Below are positions 2,345 through 8,044 of a stretch of 64,000 bases of DNA, in pieces. Both the position numbers and the translations under genes were made by a program. This stretch comes from Thiomicrospira aerophila AL3. GTDB taxonomy: Bacteria; Pseudomonadota; Gammaproteobacteria; Thiomicrospirales; Thiomicrospiraceae. Below the pieces are notes generated by a model that was not told where the DNA came from, did not search any database, and was given only the letters and a program-made list of their open reading frames with translations. How positions within the stretch are numbered: the first letter of the stretch is position 1; every line of letters starts with the position of its first letter. The stretch is from the NCBI RefSeq assembly GCF_000227665.2, contig NZ_CP007030.1, positions 1,550,001 through 1,614,000 on the forward strand, written 5' to 3'.

Positions 2345-2655
2345 TAGGAATACGAACAGCAGTAATCGGTGACTGACTTCACTTTGATACCAAACTTAGC
2401 ATTAGCTGGCACCTCAAAAGACTCACCGGCTTTGATCGTCTGCCAAGCACTTGACCCAGGCAACAACACCTCGACTTCACCCGCCATAATTTCCATTAAC
2501 TCATCTTCATCCGTGCCAAACTCATAGTCACCCGGCATCATAATACCTAGTGTTTTACGCGAACCATCCGCAAATTTAACAACACGACTGGTTACCTTGC
2601 CATCAAAATAAATATTGGCAGCTTTTAATACGGTGACATTATCAAATTGACTCAT
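2344..2655 (-). CDS. ppnP: Pyrimidine/purine nucleoside phosphorylase
   Basis: Small cupin-fold protein of 103 residues in the DUF1255/YaiE family, whose E. coli member phosphorolyses a broad range of nucleosides. Family marks are [12 protein letters not shown] near the N-terminus, [15 protein letters not shown], a central [14 protein letters not shown], and an [12 protein letters not shown] block before the C-terminal YCCSY. Length is typical. It lies upstream of the peptidase on the same strand, with stop and start codons sharing one base. gloA is encoded upstream on the same strand across a 44-base gap. Confidence 0.9.
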
Positions 2656-2699
2656 TTAGTTTTCCTTGTTGAGACGTTATCAATTAAAAATTGTATATT

Positions 2700-3095
2700 T
2701 CAAGTACGAACATGATCAGCACCAATCAATTCAATCGGGTAGCCGTCAGGATCTTCAATAAACGCAATAATCGTTGTGCCGGCATTCATGGGGCCTGCTT
2801 CGCGCAGAATTTTAGCACCCTTGGCTTTGGCCGTGGCGGCCGCTTCATAGACATCCGCTACTTCTATCGCAATATGGCCATAAGCGGTGCCCATTTCATA
2901 TTCACTGACACCCCAGTTATAGGTTAATTCTAATACCGTGTGGTCTGATTCGTCGCCATAGCCTAAAAACGCCAGGGTAAACTCGCCTTTTGGATAGTCC
3001 TTTTGACGCAACAACGACATCCCCATCACTTGGGTATAAAAATCAATTGAACGTTGTAAATCACCGACTCGTAACATAGTATGCAACATTCGCAT
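2700..3095 (-). CDS. gloA: Lactoylglutathione lyase (glyoxalase I)
   Basis: Metal-dependent enzyme that isomerises the methylglyoxal-glutathione hemithioacetal to S-lactoylglutathione in the cytoplasm. At 131 residues it has the standard single-unit bacterial length. The start [20 protein letters not shown] holds the first metal-binding His. Other blocks are [27 protein letters not shown] and [12 protein letters not shown], which carry the remaining His and Glu ligands. The ATG is preceded at seven bases by AGGAGG. No frameshift or missing ligand was noticed. Confidence 0.96.
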
Positions 3096-3141
3096 CTGTA
3101 ATCCTCCTGGGTTGATAATTCAATTTAGCCTAAGTCTCAAC

Positions 3142-4344
3142 TTAAACCTGCAAACGTCTTAGTCCAAACCACGCAATCATGATGGCCAATAACACCGCTA
3201 AGGACGATAGCATATAGGATAACAAGGCGCCACCGATAGACCAGGTAAGTCCGGCAATTAGCGCACCCATCGCGCCTCCCAAGCCTTGACTGGTCGCCGC
3301 ATAAACCGCTTGACCACGACTGCGTAACGCACCATTAAACAAACTATCAATTAAATGCAGTGCCACAGCATGATAAAGGCCAAAGCTTGCCGCATGAAAT
3401 AATTGCGCGACCAATAAGGCACTCAGGCTTTCGACACCCCATAAACTTAACTGCCACCTAAGCAAGGTTAAACCTAAGCTGCACATTAGCAATAGCATAA
3501 TAGACAGATGCCGCAATAGCCATCCCATGGCTAAAAATACAAAGATTTCAGCCACGACACCCAACGTCCATAAGCCTGCGATTGTTTGGGTAGAATAGCC
3601 ATATTCGCTTAAATGAATGGAGAAAAAATTATAGTAGGTGCCATGGGAAAACTGGATCAAGAAACTGACTGCCAGCAAGGCCAACACGATGGGTGATAAC
3701 AACACCGGCCAAAGCGATGTCTTAGCGGTATCGGCATGCTGATCAGCCGAATCTGGCTGATCCACCAGTGTGAAGGTCACCAAACTAAGCAGCAGAAACA
3801 ACGCTAAAATAACCCAAGGAAAACCTGCCAGCCCCCAGTGACTAAACAGCCAACCTAACAGCAACACCGCCGCAATAAAACCCAGTGAACCCCATAACCG
3901 AATCTTGCCATAGTCTACTTTTTTACTGCCTAACTGGCTAAAGGTATAGGCCTCAAATAAGGGCAAACCACCGTGCCAAAAGAAGCTAAACAACAGCACG
4001 ACCAATAACAACGACCAAAAATCTGCTGCCCATAGCAGGCCTGCTGCCGTAAGGGTCGCTAGCGCCATCGCGATACGAATCCAAAGCATCATTTTGCCGG
4101 AATGATCAGCTAACCAACCCCAAAAATAGGGCGCAATAATTTTGGTGCCAATCAGCGCCGCCATCACTTGACCGATTTCTAATGCATTGAACCCCAAGCC
4201 CTGCATATAGAGGCCAAAAAAGGGTAGAAACGTACCAAACAAGGTGAAATAAAAAAAGTAGTACAACGACAAACGCCGACGAGGAATCCCCGTCGGCGTA
4301 GCTAGACTAGACGGATGAGCTACCTGCTCAGGTTGATTTGGCAA
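3142..4344 (-). CDS. MFS transporter (HcaT/LacY-like subgroup)
   Basis: Inner-membrane carrier of about 400 residues with roughly twelve hydrophobic segments. The opening [22 protein letters not shown] and the following [14 protein letters not shown] and [12 protein letters not shown] match the MFS_1-like group that contains HcaT (phenylpropionate) and nucleoside/sugar permeases. The substrate cannot be told. The frame opens with TTG at 4344, inside the last codons of aroC (17-base overlap). No ATG lies near the N-terminus and no good ribosome-binding site is visible, so the exact start is uncertain; translational coupling to aroC is likely. Confidence 0.85.
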
Positions 4345-5437
4345 GTTTAGCTAAATCCATAACGGGCGGCACGACATCGGCATTCTGTGCACGGTGACGC
4401 ATAAAATGATCCAACAGCACAATCGCCATTTGTGCCTCAGCAATCGGGGTAGCACGAATTCCCACACAGGGGTCATGCCGCCCCTTAGTAATCATATCCA
4501 CCGCTTCGCCGTGCATATTGATACTCTTCCCTGGCACCGTCACACTCGAGGTCGGTTTTAACGCAATATGAGCAATAATATCTTGGCCAGATGAAATCCC
4601 CCCCACTATGCCGCCAGCATGATTCGATAAAAACCCTTGCTCTGGCGACATTTCATCACGATGTTCGGTCCCCTTTTGATTAACCACAGCAAAGCCATCG
4701 CCAATTTCAACGCCTTTAACAGCATTAATGCTCATCAGTGCATGGGCCAAGTCCGCATCTAAACGATCAAAAACCGGTTCGCCTAATCCCACTGGCACGC
4801 CAGAGGCCACAATGGTAATTTTCGCACCGATTGAATCACCGGTTTTTTTCAACGCGGTCATGTACTCTTCCATCTCGGCAATTTTATTAAAATCAGGGCA
4901 AAAGAATGGATTGGTATCAATAACATTAAAATCAACCTGTTCAATACTTACTGGCCCAAGCTGTGATAAATAACCTCTAACCTCTACCCCTAACCGCTCA
5001 CGCAGATATTTTTTTGCAATTGCGCCTGCTGCCACACGCATAGCGGTTTCGCGCGCAGAAGAACGCCCGCCGCCCCGGTAATCACGCAAACCATATTTTT
5101 GGGTATAGGTGTAGTCGGCATGCGCTGGACGAAACACTTCCGCAATTTTGGAATAGTCTTGCGAACGCTGGTCGGTGTTTTCAATTAATAACCCAATCGG
5201 TGTGCCAGTGGTCACCCCTTCAAAAACGCCCGAAAGAATTTTAACTTGATCGGATTCACGACGAGCCGTGGTGAATTTAGATGTCCCCGGTTTGCGTCGA
5301 TCCAACTCCTGCTGAATATCTGCCTCAGTGAGTGGCAGGCCTGGTGGACAACCATCTACAATACAACCTAATGCAATACCATGACTTTCACCAAATGTGG
5401 TCACACGAAATACTTGTCCGAGGCTATTACCGGCCAT
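4328..5437 (-). CDS. aroC: Chorismate synthase
   Basis: Last step of the shikimate pathway: 5-enolpyruvylshikimate-3-phosphate to chorismate with reduced FMN. The 369 residues begin [20 protein letters not shown], with the catalytic GESHG signature. Also present are [28 protein letters not shown] and GGISSG with the downstream [10 protein letters not shown] block. Length and order match the bifunctional-independent bacterial enzyme. A GAGAGAAG purine run precedes the ATG. A CAGGCCTG palindrome lies at 5336. It shares an overlap with the MFS gene downstream. Confidence 0.97.
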
Positions 5438-5461
5438 CTATGCTTCTCTCTATCATTAATA

Positions 5462-6505
5462 CTAAAAACTAAAAAAATAGCCACGATAGCCGTCTAGACG
5501 CCGACTATCCTGCTGGGTTTGAGTGGGCTGAATCGGCGCATCTTGCCAAGACTTGAGGGGCAAACGTCCATTCAGCGGCTGAATAGGTCGCGCATTGTGA
5601 CCTAACACATCTTGAAAGCCCAAAATTTGTCGAATAGACGCTTCGATCGGTTCACGCATTACCACCCATACCACCCCTTCCTCACAAGGAGGCTGGGTTT
5701 GGGAACCCAAATATCGAAAGTAATCACGCGATCTAGGCCACAAATTAATCGGCTGAAACGGCACACCCTCATAAATTCGTAAACGATCAGCGTCACGCGG
5801 TAAATGATTTAATATCTGCTCAAGCTGTGGATGACGCTGTCCCTCTTTAACAAGCACGCTCACCACGAGTGCTTGACCCTCGCCATCACGATGATGGAAC
5901 TGGATTTCTAGCGGATAGTTAAAACCATCCAGTTGATGTTCACTCGGGGTTTTAAATTGCACTTCAAGTAGTTGATATTGGGACCCGGCTTTGATCAATG
6001 GACTTCCCAACGGAATAGGACTGACTAAACGCGCCGAAGATTTTTGTAAGCGCAAAGGCATCGCCCGATAATCCGTAGCTAACTCGCTCAGATTCATCAC
6101 ACTCGCGGCTTGCTCTGTGACCAAATTAACCGGTGATTGTGCTCGGCCGCGCTGACAACAACGAAATGCCTCATGTAACGAACCCCAAGCATCGGGGCCA
6201 TTGTCACCCTGATAGCTCCAATCTGGCAAAACTTCAGGTTGGGCTGGTGCTGGTGCCGGCGCCGCCGTTAAGGGTTCAGCAGCCGTTGTGGCTTCAGTTG
6301 CTTCGGGGCTAGCAGCATTACGAGCCGATTCATCAGTCGCTGTGCCATTATCCGTTACCAATTCTGGATTTTGGGCTTGAAAGGCTTGGAACTCGGCTTC
6401 AAGGTCTAATAGATTAGCGTAAGCAGGCAGTGAACATACCGCAATCAATGGCAACATAAATGGCATCATAACCAGCGAACCTAGCCATTGTCTTACCCCC
6501 TTCAT
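5462..6505 (-). CDS. Alpha-carbonic-anhydrase-fold protein lacking the zinc histidines
   Basis: Exported protein of 347 residues from the chosen ATG at 6505, which has AGGAG seven bases upstream; another ATG at 6511 is too close to that site. A signal peptide ends near PAYA. A linker of about 60 residues rich in Ala, Thr, Glu and Pro follows, then an alpha-CA domain: DWSYQGDNGPDAWGSL, QSPVNL, TPSEH, and QTQPPCEEGVVW near the C-terminus with the Thr199 equivalent kept. All three zinc ligands are replaced: where active enzymes read QFHFHxPSEH this has V-Q-F-K-TPSEH (Gln183, Lys185), and where they read ExHxVH it has EIQFHH (Gln202). It is therefore probably not a carbonic anhydrase and may act as a binding or structural protein. 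Confidence 0.85.
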   Translation of the reverse strand: MKGVRQWLGSLVMMPFMLPLIAVCSLPAYANLLDLEAEFQAFQAQNPELVTDNGTATDESARNAASPEATEATTAAEPLTAAPAPAPAQPEVLPDWSYQGDNGPDAWGSLHEAFRCCQRGRAQSPVNLVTEQAASVMNLSELATDYRAMPLRLQKSSARLVSPIPLGSPLIKAGSQYQLLEVQFKTPSEHQLDGFNYPLEIQFHHRDGEGQALVVSVLVKEGQRHPQLEQILNHLPRDADRLRIYEGVPFQPINLWPRSRDYFRYLGSQTQPPCEEGVVWVVMREPIEASIRQILGFQDVLGHNARPIQPLNGRLPLKSWQDAPIQPTQTQQDSRRLDGYRGYFFSF

Positions 6506-6540
6506 CTGCATGCTCCTGTGCCGTATTTAATCTAAGACGC

Positions 6541-7500
6541 TCAACTAAGTTCTTTATACCTCGACTGAAGCAGGTCGTCAAATAGCAACAATTCTTCACG
6601 GCTAATCGCAAACACCCCTTCGCCGCCCTGTTCAAACTCAAACCAATACAAAGGTAAGCCTTCATAAACCTGCTCAACAAAGTGCTGACTCACCCCGACT
6701 TCAACAATCAACACGCCATTATCTGTTAAATGATCGGCAGCTTGAGCTAAGATGCGGCGAACCAGGTCTAAACCATCGACACCTGCCGCCAAACCTAATG
6801 CCGGCTCAGCTTGATACTCGGGGGCTAAAGCGGCCATTTCAATCGCATCGACATAAGGCGGATTCGACAAAATAACATCGTAACGCTCACCTTCAAGGGC
6901 ATTAAACAAATCTGATTGAATTGCCCGCACCTGGCCTTCTAAACCATAACGGGCAATATTTTTTTGCGCCACAGCGAGTGCTTCAGCCGAGATATCCACT
7001 AAATCAACCTGTGCTGCATCAAAGGCTTGCAAACTCGCTATACCAATACAACCCGAACCCGTACATAGGTCTAATACGCGTTCAACTTCATCTTCAACCA
7101 ACCAACCCTGAAAGCCCTTTTCAATAAGTTCAGCCATCGGCGAACGCGGCACTAGCGTGTGTTGATTGACATAAAAATCCAACCCAGCAAAGCGAGCTTG
7201 ACCGGTTAAATAGGCCGCGGGCTGCCTTGATTGAATACGCAAAATAAACAACTCCGTTAGACAGGTTCGTTCTGCAAAGGTTAGACGAGCATTCAAGTAC
7301 TGCTCAACTCGTTCCAAGGGTAATGACAGCTTATGACAGGACAAAATTAATGCCTCATCAAACGGATTATCCGTACCATGACCAAATACCAGGCCTGCTT
7401 GCGTAAATAACTTGGCACCCCAACGCACAAAGTCGAGTAGCGTTTCTAAACCATCATGTTGATAGTCAAAATCATCACTTAAATCGGTCAACTTACTCAT
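6541..7500 (-). CDS. prmB: Ribosomal protein uL3 glutamine N5-methyltransferase
   Basis: SAM-dependent enzyme that methylates a glutamine of ribosomal protein L3. An N-terminal helical domain is followed by the Rossmann methyltransferase with motif I VLDLCTGSGCIGI and the catalytic SNPPYV, plus VPRSPMAELI upstream, all of which mark the PrmB branch rather than PrmC. The ATG at 7500 was chosen over one six codons upstream because AGG lies at good spacing and because it forms an eight-base overlap (ATGAGTAA) with the stop of mog, suggesting translational coupling. Length is about 319 residues, as expected. Confidence 0.92.
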   Translation of the reverse strand: MSKLTDLSDDFDYQHDGLETLLDFVRWGAKLFTQAGLVFGHGTDNPFDEALILSCHKLSLPLERVEQYLNARLTFAERTCLTELFILRIQSRQPAAYLTGQARFAGLDFYVNQHTLVPRSPMAELIEKGFQGWLVEDEVERVLDLCTGSGCIGIASLQAFDAAQVDLVDISAEALAVAQKNIARYGLEGQVRAIQSDLFNALEGERYDVILSNPPYVDAIEMAALAPEYQAEPALGLAAGVDGLDLVRRILAQAADHLTDNGVLIVEVGVSQHFVEQVYEGLPLYWFEFEQGGEGVFAISREELLLFDDLLQSRYKELS

Positions 7501-8044
7501 CGGCGACCTGCTTGGCATGTTTGGGTCTAAACGCCTGTACCCTATCGCTATGGGTGGTTATAAATGGGCCATCAATCAGATCAATACAATAAGGTACCGC
7601 AGGGAAGACCGCATCTAAACACTCGGCAATAGCAGTTGGCTTACCGGGCAGATTAATAATCAAGCTTTGATTACGAATTACCGCAACTTGGCGAGATAAA
7701 ATAGCCGTAGGCACATACTTTAGTGACACGGCCCGCATTTGCTCTGCAAACCCATCCAAAACCTTATCCGCTACGGCTAGTGTGGCCTCTGGTGTAACAT
7801 CGCGTTTCGCCGGACCGGTGCCACCAGTCGTTAAAATCAAACAACAGCCTTCTTCATCGGCCAGTTTAATTAATGTTTGCTCAATCAACGCCTGTTCATC
7901 TGCAATGATATGTTTAACAGCATGCCATGGACAGCTAAGTGCACTCGTTAGCCAATCATACATTGCTGGGCCGCCTAAGTCTTCGTAGACCCCAGTACTG
8001 GCACGATCTGAAATAGTCACCAGTCCAATTTTAACCATTTGCAT
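7493..8044 (-). CDS. mog: Molybdopterin adenylyltransferase
   Basis: Adenylates molybdopterin ahead of molybdenum insertion in Moco synthesis. From the ATG at 8044 (AAGGGG seven bases upstream) the protein has 183 residues; the frame stays open further upstream without a good site. Family blocks: KIGLVTISDRASTGVYEDLGG, then LILTTGGTGPAKRDVTPEAT with the GGTG-x7-D-x-TPEA signature, and INLPGKP near the C-terminus. Mog is preferred over MoaB because of length and the LGGPAM region. It is divergent from lon, with 84 bases between. The modE-modABC genes in the same window serve the same cofactor. Confidence 0.9.
   Translation of the reverse strand: MQMVKIGLVTISDRASTGVYEDLGGPAMYDWLTSALSCPWHAVKHIIADEQALIEQTLIKLADEEGCCLILTTGGTGPAKRDVTPEATLAVADKVLDGFAEQMRAVSLKYVPTAILSRQVAVIRNQSLIINLPGKPTAIAECLDAVFPAVPYCIDLIDGPFITTHSDRVQAFRPKHAKQVADE

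Follow-up and report, generated by a model that had tools for sequence, protein, structure and literature searches.

A maintained α-carbonic anhydrase homologue in Thiomicrospira aerophila that has lost all three zinc histidines

The window analysed is a 64,000-nucleotide stretch of the Thiomicrospira aerophila AL3 genome (contig NZ_CP007030.1, positions 1,550,001 to 1,614,000), and coordinates below are positions within it. An open frame at 5462–6511 on the minus strand encodes an exported, ligand-less α-carbonic anhydrase (α-CA) homologue of 349 aa, counted from the first ATG at 6511. A second ATG (6503–6505) has AGGAG 7 nt upstream and gives a product of 347 aa. Judged by this spacing, the second ATG is probably the better start, which places the gene at 5462–6505. 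Residue numbers are counted from the first ATG, while site positions (94, 96, 119) follow human CA II numbering. The start at the second ATG accounts for the numbering of an earlier note on this DNA, whose Gln183, Lys185 and Gln202 are residues 185, 187 and 204 here. The gene is flanked on the same strand by prmB (6541–7518), which lies upstream, 35 nt before the α-CA start, and is a conserved neighbour of the orthologues, and by aroC (4328–5437), which lies 24 nt past the α-CA stop.

The gene encodes, in order, a signal peptide, a short conserved N-terminal segment, a linker, the α-CA domain and an aromatic C-terminal tail. Specifically, a signal peptide with cleavage after AYA is predicted by eye for residues 3–32 (6416–6505, minus strand, as are all features of the gene). 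The segment at the expected mature N-terminus (6389–6412) carries the motif [LI]-[ILV]-[DN]-L-x-x-E, found in all 29 orthologues described below, where it reads [NPS]-[LI]-[ILV]-[DN]-L-x-x-E. The Ala/Thr/Pro-rich linker (6224–6355) is poorly conserved, with 35% identity over 43 positions to the homologue of Thiomicrospira sp. ALE5. The earlier note had singled out this long linker as a special feature; that view is not sustained, as all 12 intact orthologues inspected for it carry a linker. The α-CA domain spans residues 98–324 (5540–6220) by Pfam and by alignment to the solved structure 4xz5, and is followed by the tail GYRGYFFSF (5465–5491); intact orthologues likewise end in aromatics.

The assignment to the α-CA fold family is clear. 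The Pfam profile Carb_anhydrase (PF00194) matches the window protein over nearly its whole length (profile positions 1–248 of 254) with an E-value of 8.5e-29 and 101.4 bits against a cut-off of 27; an NCBIfam search of the protein assigned no family. The best solved structure by sequence is 4xz5 (7.6e-60), which we take to be the α-CA of Hydrogenovibrio (Thiomicrospira) crunogenus and which aligns without gaps over 229 residues (96–324). This alignment, together with that to relatives, is the basis for placing the zinc site; a two-row structure prediction from the window protein and ALE5 only gave a mean pLDDT of 33 and a pTM of 0.25.

In the alignment, Gln185 (5957–5959), Lys187 (5951–5953) and Gln204 (5900–5902) stand opposite the His-His-His of 4xz5 at positions 94, 96 and 119, the zinc histidines of active enzymes. 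The three-histidine signature of a catalytic α-CA (EC 4.2.1.1) is thus absent, and the Gln/Lys/Gln reading of the earlier note is borne out by 4xz5 and the orthologues alike. No alternative His residues fill the zinc site in the alignment: a substitute triad is absent, and the only new His lining the cavity is His206 (position 121; 5894–5896), which is Val in all 19 intact orthologues and His only in the window protein and ALE5. The gatekeepers Glu106 (Glu191; 5939–5941) and Thr199 (Thr272; 5696–5698) are retained, the former in 29 of 29 orthologues and the latter in nine of the ten ligand-less proteins of the family, while the proton-shuttle position 64 is Ala. Cys119 and Cys276 are also retained. 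CA-related proteins (CARPs) are defined as α-CA domains without one or more zinc-binding His (PMC2873310 and PMC5437132, from the portions available), and the window protein lacks all three. Its nearest homologue, the ALE5 record (L032), carries the same Q/K/Q triplet, which argues against a sequencing error. No second α-CA was found in the 2.16 Mb one-contig genome of the window, and neither β-CA nor DabA gave a match there.

We searched 57 genomes, including that of the window, for PF00194 and obtained a match in 35. The orthologue set contains 29 proteins: eight from Thiomicrospira, two with the triplet EHQ from a sister genus, and 19 intact ones with HHH. At least one zinc ligand is lost in all eight Thiomicrospira genomes that keep the gene. 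The triplets at 94/96/119 are QKQ in the window genome and G002 (ALE5), RRQ in G004, G007 and G008, VRQ in G005, THQ in G001 and THH in G003. The two EHQ proteins (G013 and G020; L041, L042, L074) occur at the same locus, beside intact relatives. Ligand loss as such is therefore shared across the genus, but the exact Q/K/Q change, which the earlier note had suggested looking for in orthologues, recurs only in ALE5.

The order lon-moaB-prmB-αCA-aroC is complete in six of the eight Thiomicrospira genomes. In the other two the contig breaks at the gene, with the prmB-moaB-lon side present in G004 and the aroC side in G005, whose contig begins at the gene; prmB consequently adjoins the α-CA gene in seven of eight. 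It does so as well in all 13 flanks examined outside Thiomicrospira (11 intact, 2 EHQ), and moaB and lon follow in 12 of these, the contig of G021 ending earlier. For the remaining eight of the 19 intact orthologues, orthology is assigned by sequence and tree only. The window gene is a positional orthologue of the intact sister-genus α-CAs. In a ninth Thiomicrospira genome (G006), no α-CA match was obtained at E-values up to 1, and about 54 nt separate prmB from the aroC gene that comes next. This clean loss indicates that the gene is dispensable at least there, so that not every relative needs it.

The same locus shows a step in similarity to ALE5. Nucleotide identity is 92–96% over gloA-MFS-aroC (about 2500–5450) and 64–79% from the α-CA gene through the start of lon, and protein identity over the same segments is 97–98% versus 69–87%. 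The drop points to a recombination edge at about the aroC/α-CA junction.

In an α-CA tree computed without the ligand columns, the eight Thiomicrospira proteins and the EHQ pair each group together as a clade of their own (100/100 in both cases). Their stems are long: 0.70 leads to Thiomicrospira, 1.69 to the QKQ pair and 0.64 to EHQ. A tree of lon, prmB and moaB, built for 20 genomes with a mixture model of like kind, has stems of about 0.72 (QKQ genomes and G006) and 0.19 (EHQ); under LG+G4 they are 0.39 and 0.15, respectively. The α-CA domain thus evolved roughly two to three times faster than the neighbouring genes on the QKQ and EHQ stems, compared with about 1.6 times (0.23 vs 0.14) on an intact control stem (G030, G032, G034). 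The long QKQ stem (1.69 vs about 0.72) is also compatible with a phase of relaxed constraint.

That the ligand-less proteins of the family all go back to one origin is rejected by the lon, prmB and moaB tree (AU p = 0.0009, LG+G4), while a single clade of EHQ and Thiomicrospira is not rejected by the α-CA domain alone (AU p = 0.176). Given the rejection by the locus tree, ligands were probably lost twice within the family, although the α-CA gene alone may instead have been transferred. Thiomicrospira itself forms no supported single clade in the locus tree, and a single clade is not rejected (p = 0.51). EHQ has 37 fixed residues that none of the 19 intact orthologues carries. Of these, 18 are found in some Thiomicrospira protein, only four of the 18 at pocket positions, and only three EHQ residues are common to G028, G024 and G017 alone among the intact orthologues. 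Convergence and shared descent are inseparable in this sharing, which weakens a reading by convergence.

The changes extend beyond the ligands into the pocket, whose positions follow human CA II numbering. The 19 intact orthologues share 78 invariant columns, of which 27 are changed in Thiomicrospira. The changed columns comprise nine of 14 in the catalytic pocket and 18 of 64 elsewhere (Fisher p = 0.013), the pocket list having been placed by conserved motifs and drawn up after the changed columns were known; with the three ligands set aside the pocket count is six of 11 and not significant (p = 0.086). For EHQ the corresponding numbers are seven of 14 versus nine of 64 (p = 0.006), and five of 11 without the ligands (p = 0.027). 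An intact outgroup used as control shows one of 15 pocket columns changed versus 13 of 77 others (p = 0.93).

Several of these changes recur. Position 92 (window residue 183) is changed from Gln to His in eight of the ten ligand-less proteins, in both lineages, and is Glu in the QKQ pair. Gln stands at 119 in nine of ten, and Arg or Lys at 67 in seven of ten. His64 is found only in THH and THQ, so that the proton-shuttle position is changed in six of eight Thiomicrospira proteins and in both EHQ proteins. Position 96 is basic (Lys or Arg) in all six Thiomicrospira proteins without His96; this fits a replacement of the zinc charge by Lys/Arg96, although a single base change suffices to turn His into Arg. 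All ten ligand-less proteins keep Glu106 and Glu117, and nine of them keep Thr199. The earlier note had described the rest of the domain as conserved. This holds for Glu106, Thr199 and the fold residues, but not for positions 62, 64, 67, 92, 121, 198 and 200.

Recurrent pocket changes, above all His92 and Gln119, and the retention of Glu106, Glu117 and Thr199 in all eight Thiomicrospira proteins could also mean that the cavity was rebuilt for another reaction, giving a new metal-free enzyme. There is precedent in plant CA-like proteins that make alkaloid scaffolds without two or three of the zinc His (PMC10700139, as far as its available text goes). However, the pocket varies by Thiomicrospira clade (Q/K/Q with His121, R/R/Q with Phe121, V/R/Q with Val121), unlike one conserved active site, and the neighbours prmB, aroC, moaB and lon hint at no pathway. 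We regard a new enzyme as unlikely.

The domain has been maintained under strong purifying selection after ligand loss and is not decaying. Pairwise maximum-likelihood ω was estimated on 225 domain codons. The values for the six ligand-less pairs are 0.068 (QKQ), 0.032 (THH/THQ), 0.027, 0.048 and 0.028 (RRQ trio) and 0.074 (EHQ), and ω = 1 is rejected in all six (2ΔlnL 158–262). Synonymous divergence in these pairs is 1.1–3.8 and the frames are still open; because dS is partly near saturation the ω values are approximate, though no higher than those of the intact enzymes (0.008–0.099 in nine pairs). For comparison, ω is 0.017–0.067 for prmB in nine of ten pairs, the tenth without convergence, and 0.013–0.031 for lon in nine pairs. 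Selective maintenance despite ligand loss, as expected of a CARP, is thus observed at ω of 0.027–0.074, and the gene decay that would have spoken against a maintained job is not seen. The earlier proposal of a maintained non-catalytic job gains support, with the maintenance read from ω and the non-catalytic character suggested by the missing ligands.

These values bear directly on a second alternative, that the gene is a decaying relic on its way out, its site having eroded once alkaline water left catalysis without a use. The clean absence between prmB and aroC in G006, the long stem branches and the stepwise-looking series from THH to QKQ are what such a history would leave. Against it, neutrality is rejected in every ligand-less pair, a long open frame is kept in eight of the nine genus genomes, and the protein ends and cysteines are kept. 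A relic is accordingly improbable. Most doubtful is a residual or relocated metal site, by which some members (e.g., THH and THQ, via His96 with other donors or via the new His92) would bind metal and keep slow CA activity: THH, THQ and the two EHQ proteins still have one or two zinc His, and His92 is new in these four, and the available part of PMC5437132 describes a Plasmodium falciparum η-CA that is active with Gln119 and a His94Asn human CA II of reduced activity, but all three zinc His are missing from the window protein, which has only His206 as a new His near the cavity, and the proton shuttle is gone from most of the group.

Ligand loss also occurs beyond the family. A class-wide draw gave a match in 83 of 369 genomes, of which 80 regions were examined, leaving out short fragments, the G233 match and those already in the set. 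Among the 81 domain matches that include the ligand columns, HHH accounts for 78 and the other three read AHQ, DHQ and RLQ; another three rows are partial. The G233 match from the class list is RIQ. A phylum-wide draw gave a match in 62 of 398 genomes, and 15 mostly low-scoring matches among them comprise nine HHH, one each of KHQ, ERQ, QHQ, EHH and RHQ, and one partial row, a subset that yields no frequency because it was picked for low scores. The nine ligand-less proteins outside the family come from six other Pseudomonadota families, and eight of them have Gln at 119. In a quick tree of 130 proteins, 111 of them HHH and 19 short of one or more ligands, which includes several long rows, parsimony requires at least seven state changes and well-supported branches force at least three; Gln stands at 119 in 17 of the 19.

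Some of these matches differ in kind. Two proteins (L152 and L168, from G104 and G233) represent a distant lineage with R-L-Q and R-I-Q and Ser at 199, and in one (L165, from G452) the site is altered in another way, E-H-H being accompanied by Gly106 and Pro199. Three α-CA matches (G329:C15, G087:C30 and G329:C27) lie in frames of 891, 650 and 553 aa and are possibly multidomain.

A wider possibility, which we put forward only tentatively and consider rather less than an even chance, is that bacteria repeatedly made periplasmic α-CAs into zinc-free binding proteins, with lineages converging on the same rebuilt pocket and Thiomicrospira as living intermediates. The converged pocket would then consist of lost His94 and Gln119, and within the family also of His92 and a basic residue at 67.

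For the window protein itself, we favour a bacterial CARP, i.e., an exported metal-free α-CA fold kept for a non-catalytic job, likely binding or docking, with a probability of about 0.6 on the sequence evidence. The two ends of the protein point in this direction. All 29 orthologues carry aromatics among their last six residues, and all but G005, G013 and G020 (26 of 29) end in one, while the linker is only 21–50% identical in seven close pairs whose domains are 79–95% identical. As the N-terminal motif and the aromatic end are common to intact and ligand-less forms, their role is independent of catalysis; from their conservation, we infer a probable role in docking.

A possible course of events starts with the habitat. 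Most Thiomicrospira members live in very alkaline water, with an optimum of pH 9.2–11, and need active HCO3− transport, and their carboxysomes carry an iota-type CA (PMC12628692, available portion). The ancestors of Thiomicrospira, importing HCO3− in such water, would have had little use for periplasmic exchange of CO2 and HCO3−. Zinc binding may then have been lost stepwise, at 94, then at 119, then at 96, although position 119 may have reverted in THH. The fold and both conserved ends would have been retained throughout. Through the N-terminal motif and the aromatic tail the domain would dock in the cell envelope, either onto a partner or onto itself, and the altered cavity may hold an anion or a peptide, or be closed by the charge-balancing Lys/Arg that replaces zinc. 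The little use of periplasmic CO2 hydration at high pH gives a reason for the loss of catalysis, not for the retention of the protein.

The gene content of the family is related to this scheme in a suggestive way only. Among the nine Thiomicrospira genomes, DabA is found in one (G001) and β-CA in one. In the family, DabA is found in 14 of 19 genomes with the intact protein versus two of ten with a ligand-less one, and β-CA in 15 of 19 versus two of ten. The genomes are related, and DabA coexists with THQ in G001 and with EHQ in G013, so that a link between ligand loss and absent CO2 pumping is no more than suggested.

Vertebrates, insects, nematodes, viruses and protists are known to have acatalytic CA-related proteins. 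In animal CARPs (VIII, X, XI and the secreted cnidarian ones), the α-CA fold is likewise kept, the zinc His are replaced and Gln119 recurs. Secreted cnidarian CARPs arose repeatedly and R-H-Q is a common animal triplet (PMC4981384, available text); the triplet of the bacterial protein L167 is exactly R-H-Q. Unlike animal CARPs, the window protein is bacterial and exported, it is the only α-CA found in its genome, and the ligands were lost in place rather than in a duplicate. Its positional orthology with intact bacterial α-CAs probably speaks against descent from the animal CARP VIII/X/XI lineage. 4xz5, the closest solved structure, has His-His-His at the zinc positions, and the N-terminal motif, a linker and an aromatic tail are common to the window protein and the intact family orthologues of this locus.

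Parallels outside animals are partial. Toxoplasma TgCA_RP has Gln119, has lost His94, keeps its gatekeepers and is inactive, but it is eukaryotic, GPI-anchored and nearer the η group; the Plasmodium η-CA also has Gln119 and kept gatekeepers, and the P. falciparum enzyme is active (PMC5437132, in its available part). Plant PtCAL-1 and PtCAL-2 resemble the window protein in being exported α-CA folds that have lost two or three zinc His, but they have a new catalytic role in alkaloid biosynthesis (PMC10700139, likewise), and nothing similar is indicated for the window protein. A limited literature search (titles and abstract openings) found no bacterial acatalytic α-CA relative among the matches listed. 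Acatalytic α-CA relatives are already known; that search listed no case of bacterial, in-place and graded loss.

The finding also has a practical side. In T. pelophila an 'Alpha CA' was measured among the components of the CO2-concentrating mechanism, with a transcript ratio of 0.4 for inorganic-carbon versus ammonia limitation that is not marked significant (PMC12628692, Table 2, from the text available), yet none of the eight Thiomicrospira genes here has the full His triad. The graded series of THH, THQ, VRQ, RRQ, QKQ and gene absence, beside intact orthologues, provides a natural series in which to ask what a zinc-less α-CA fold does.
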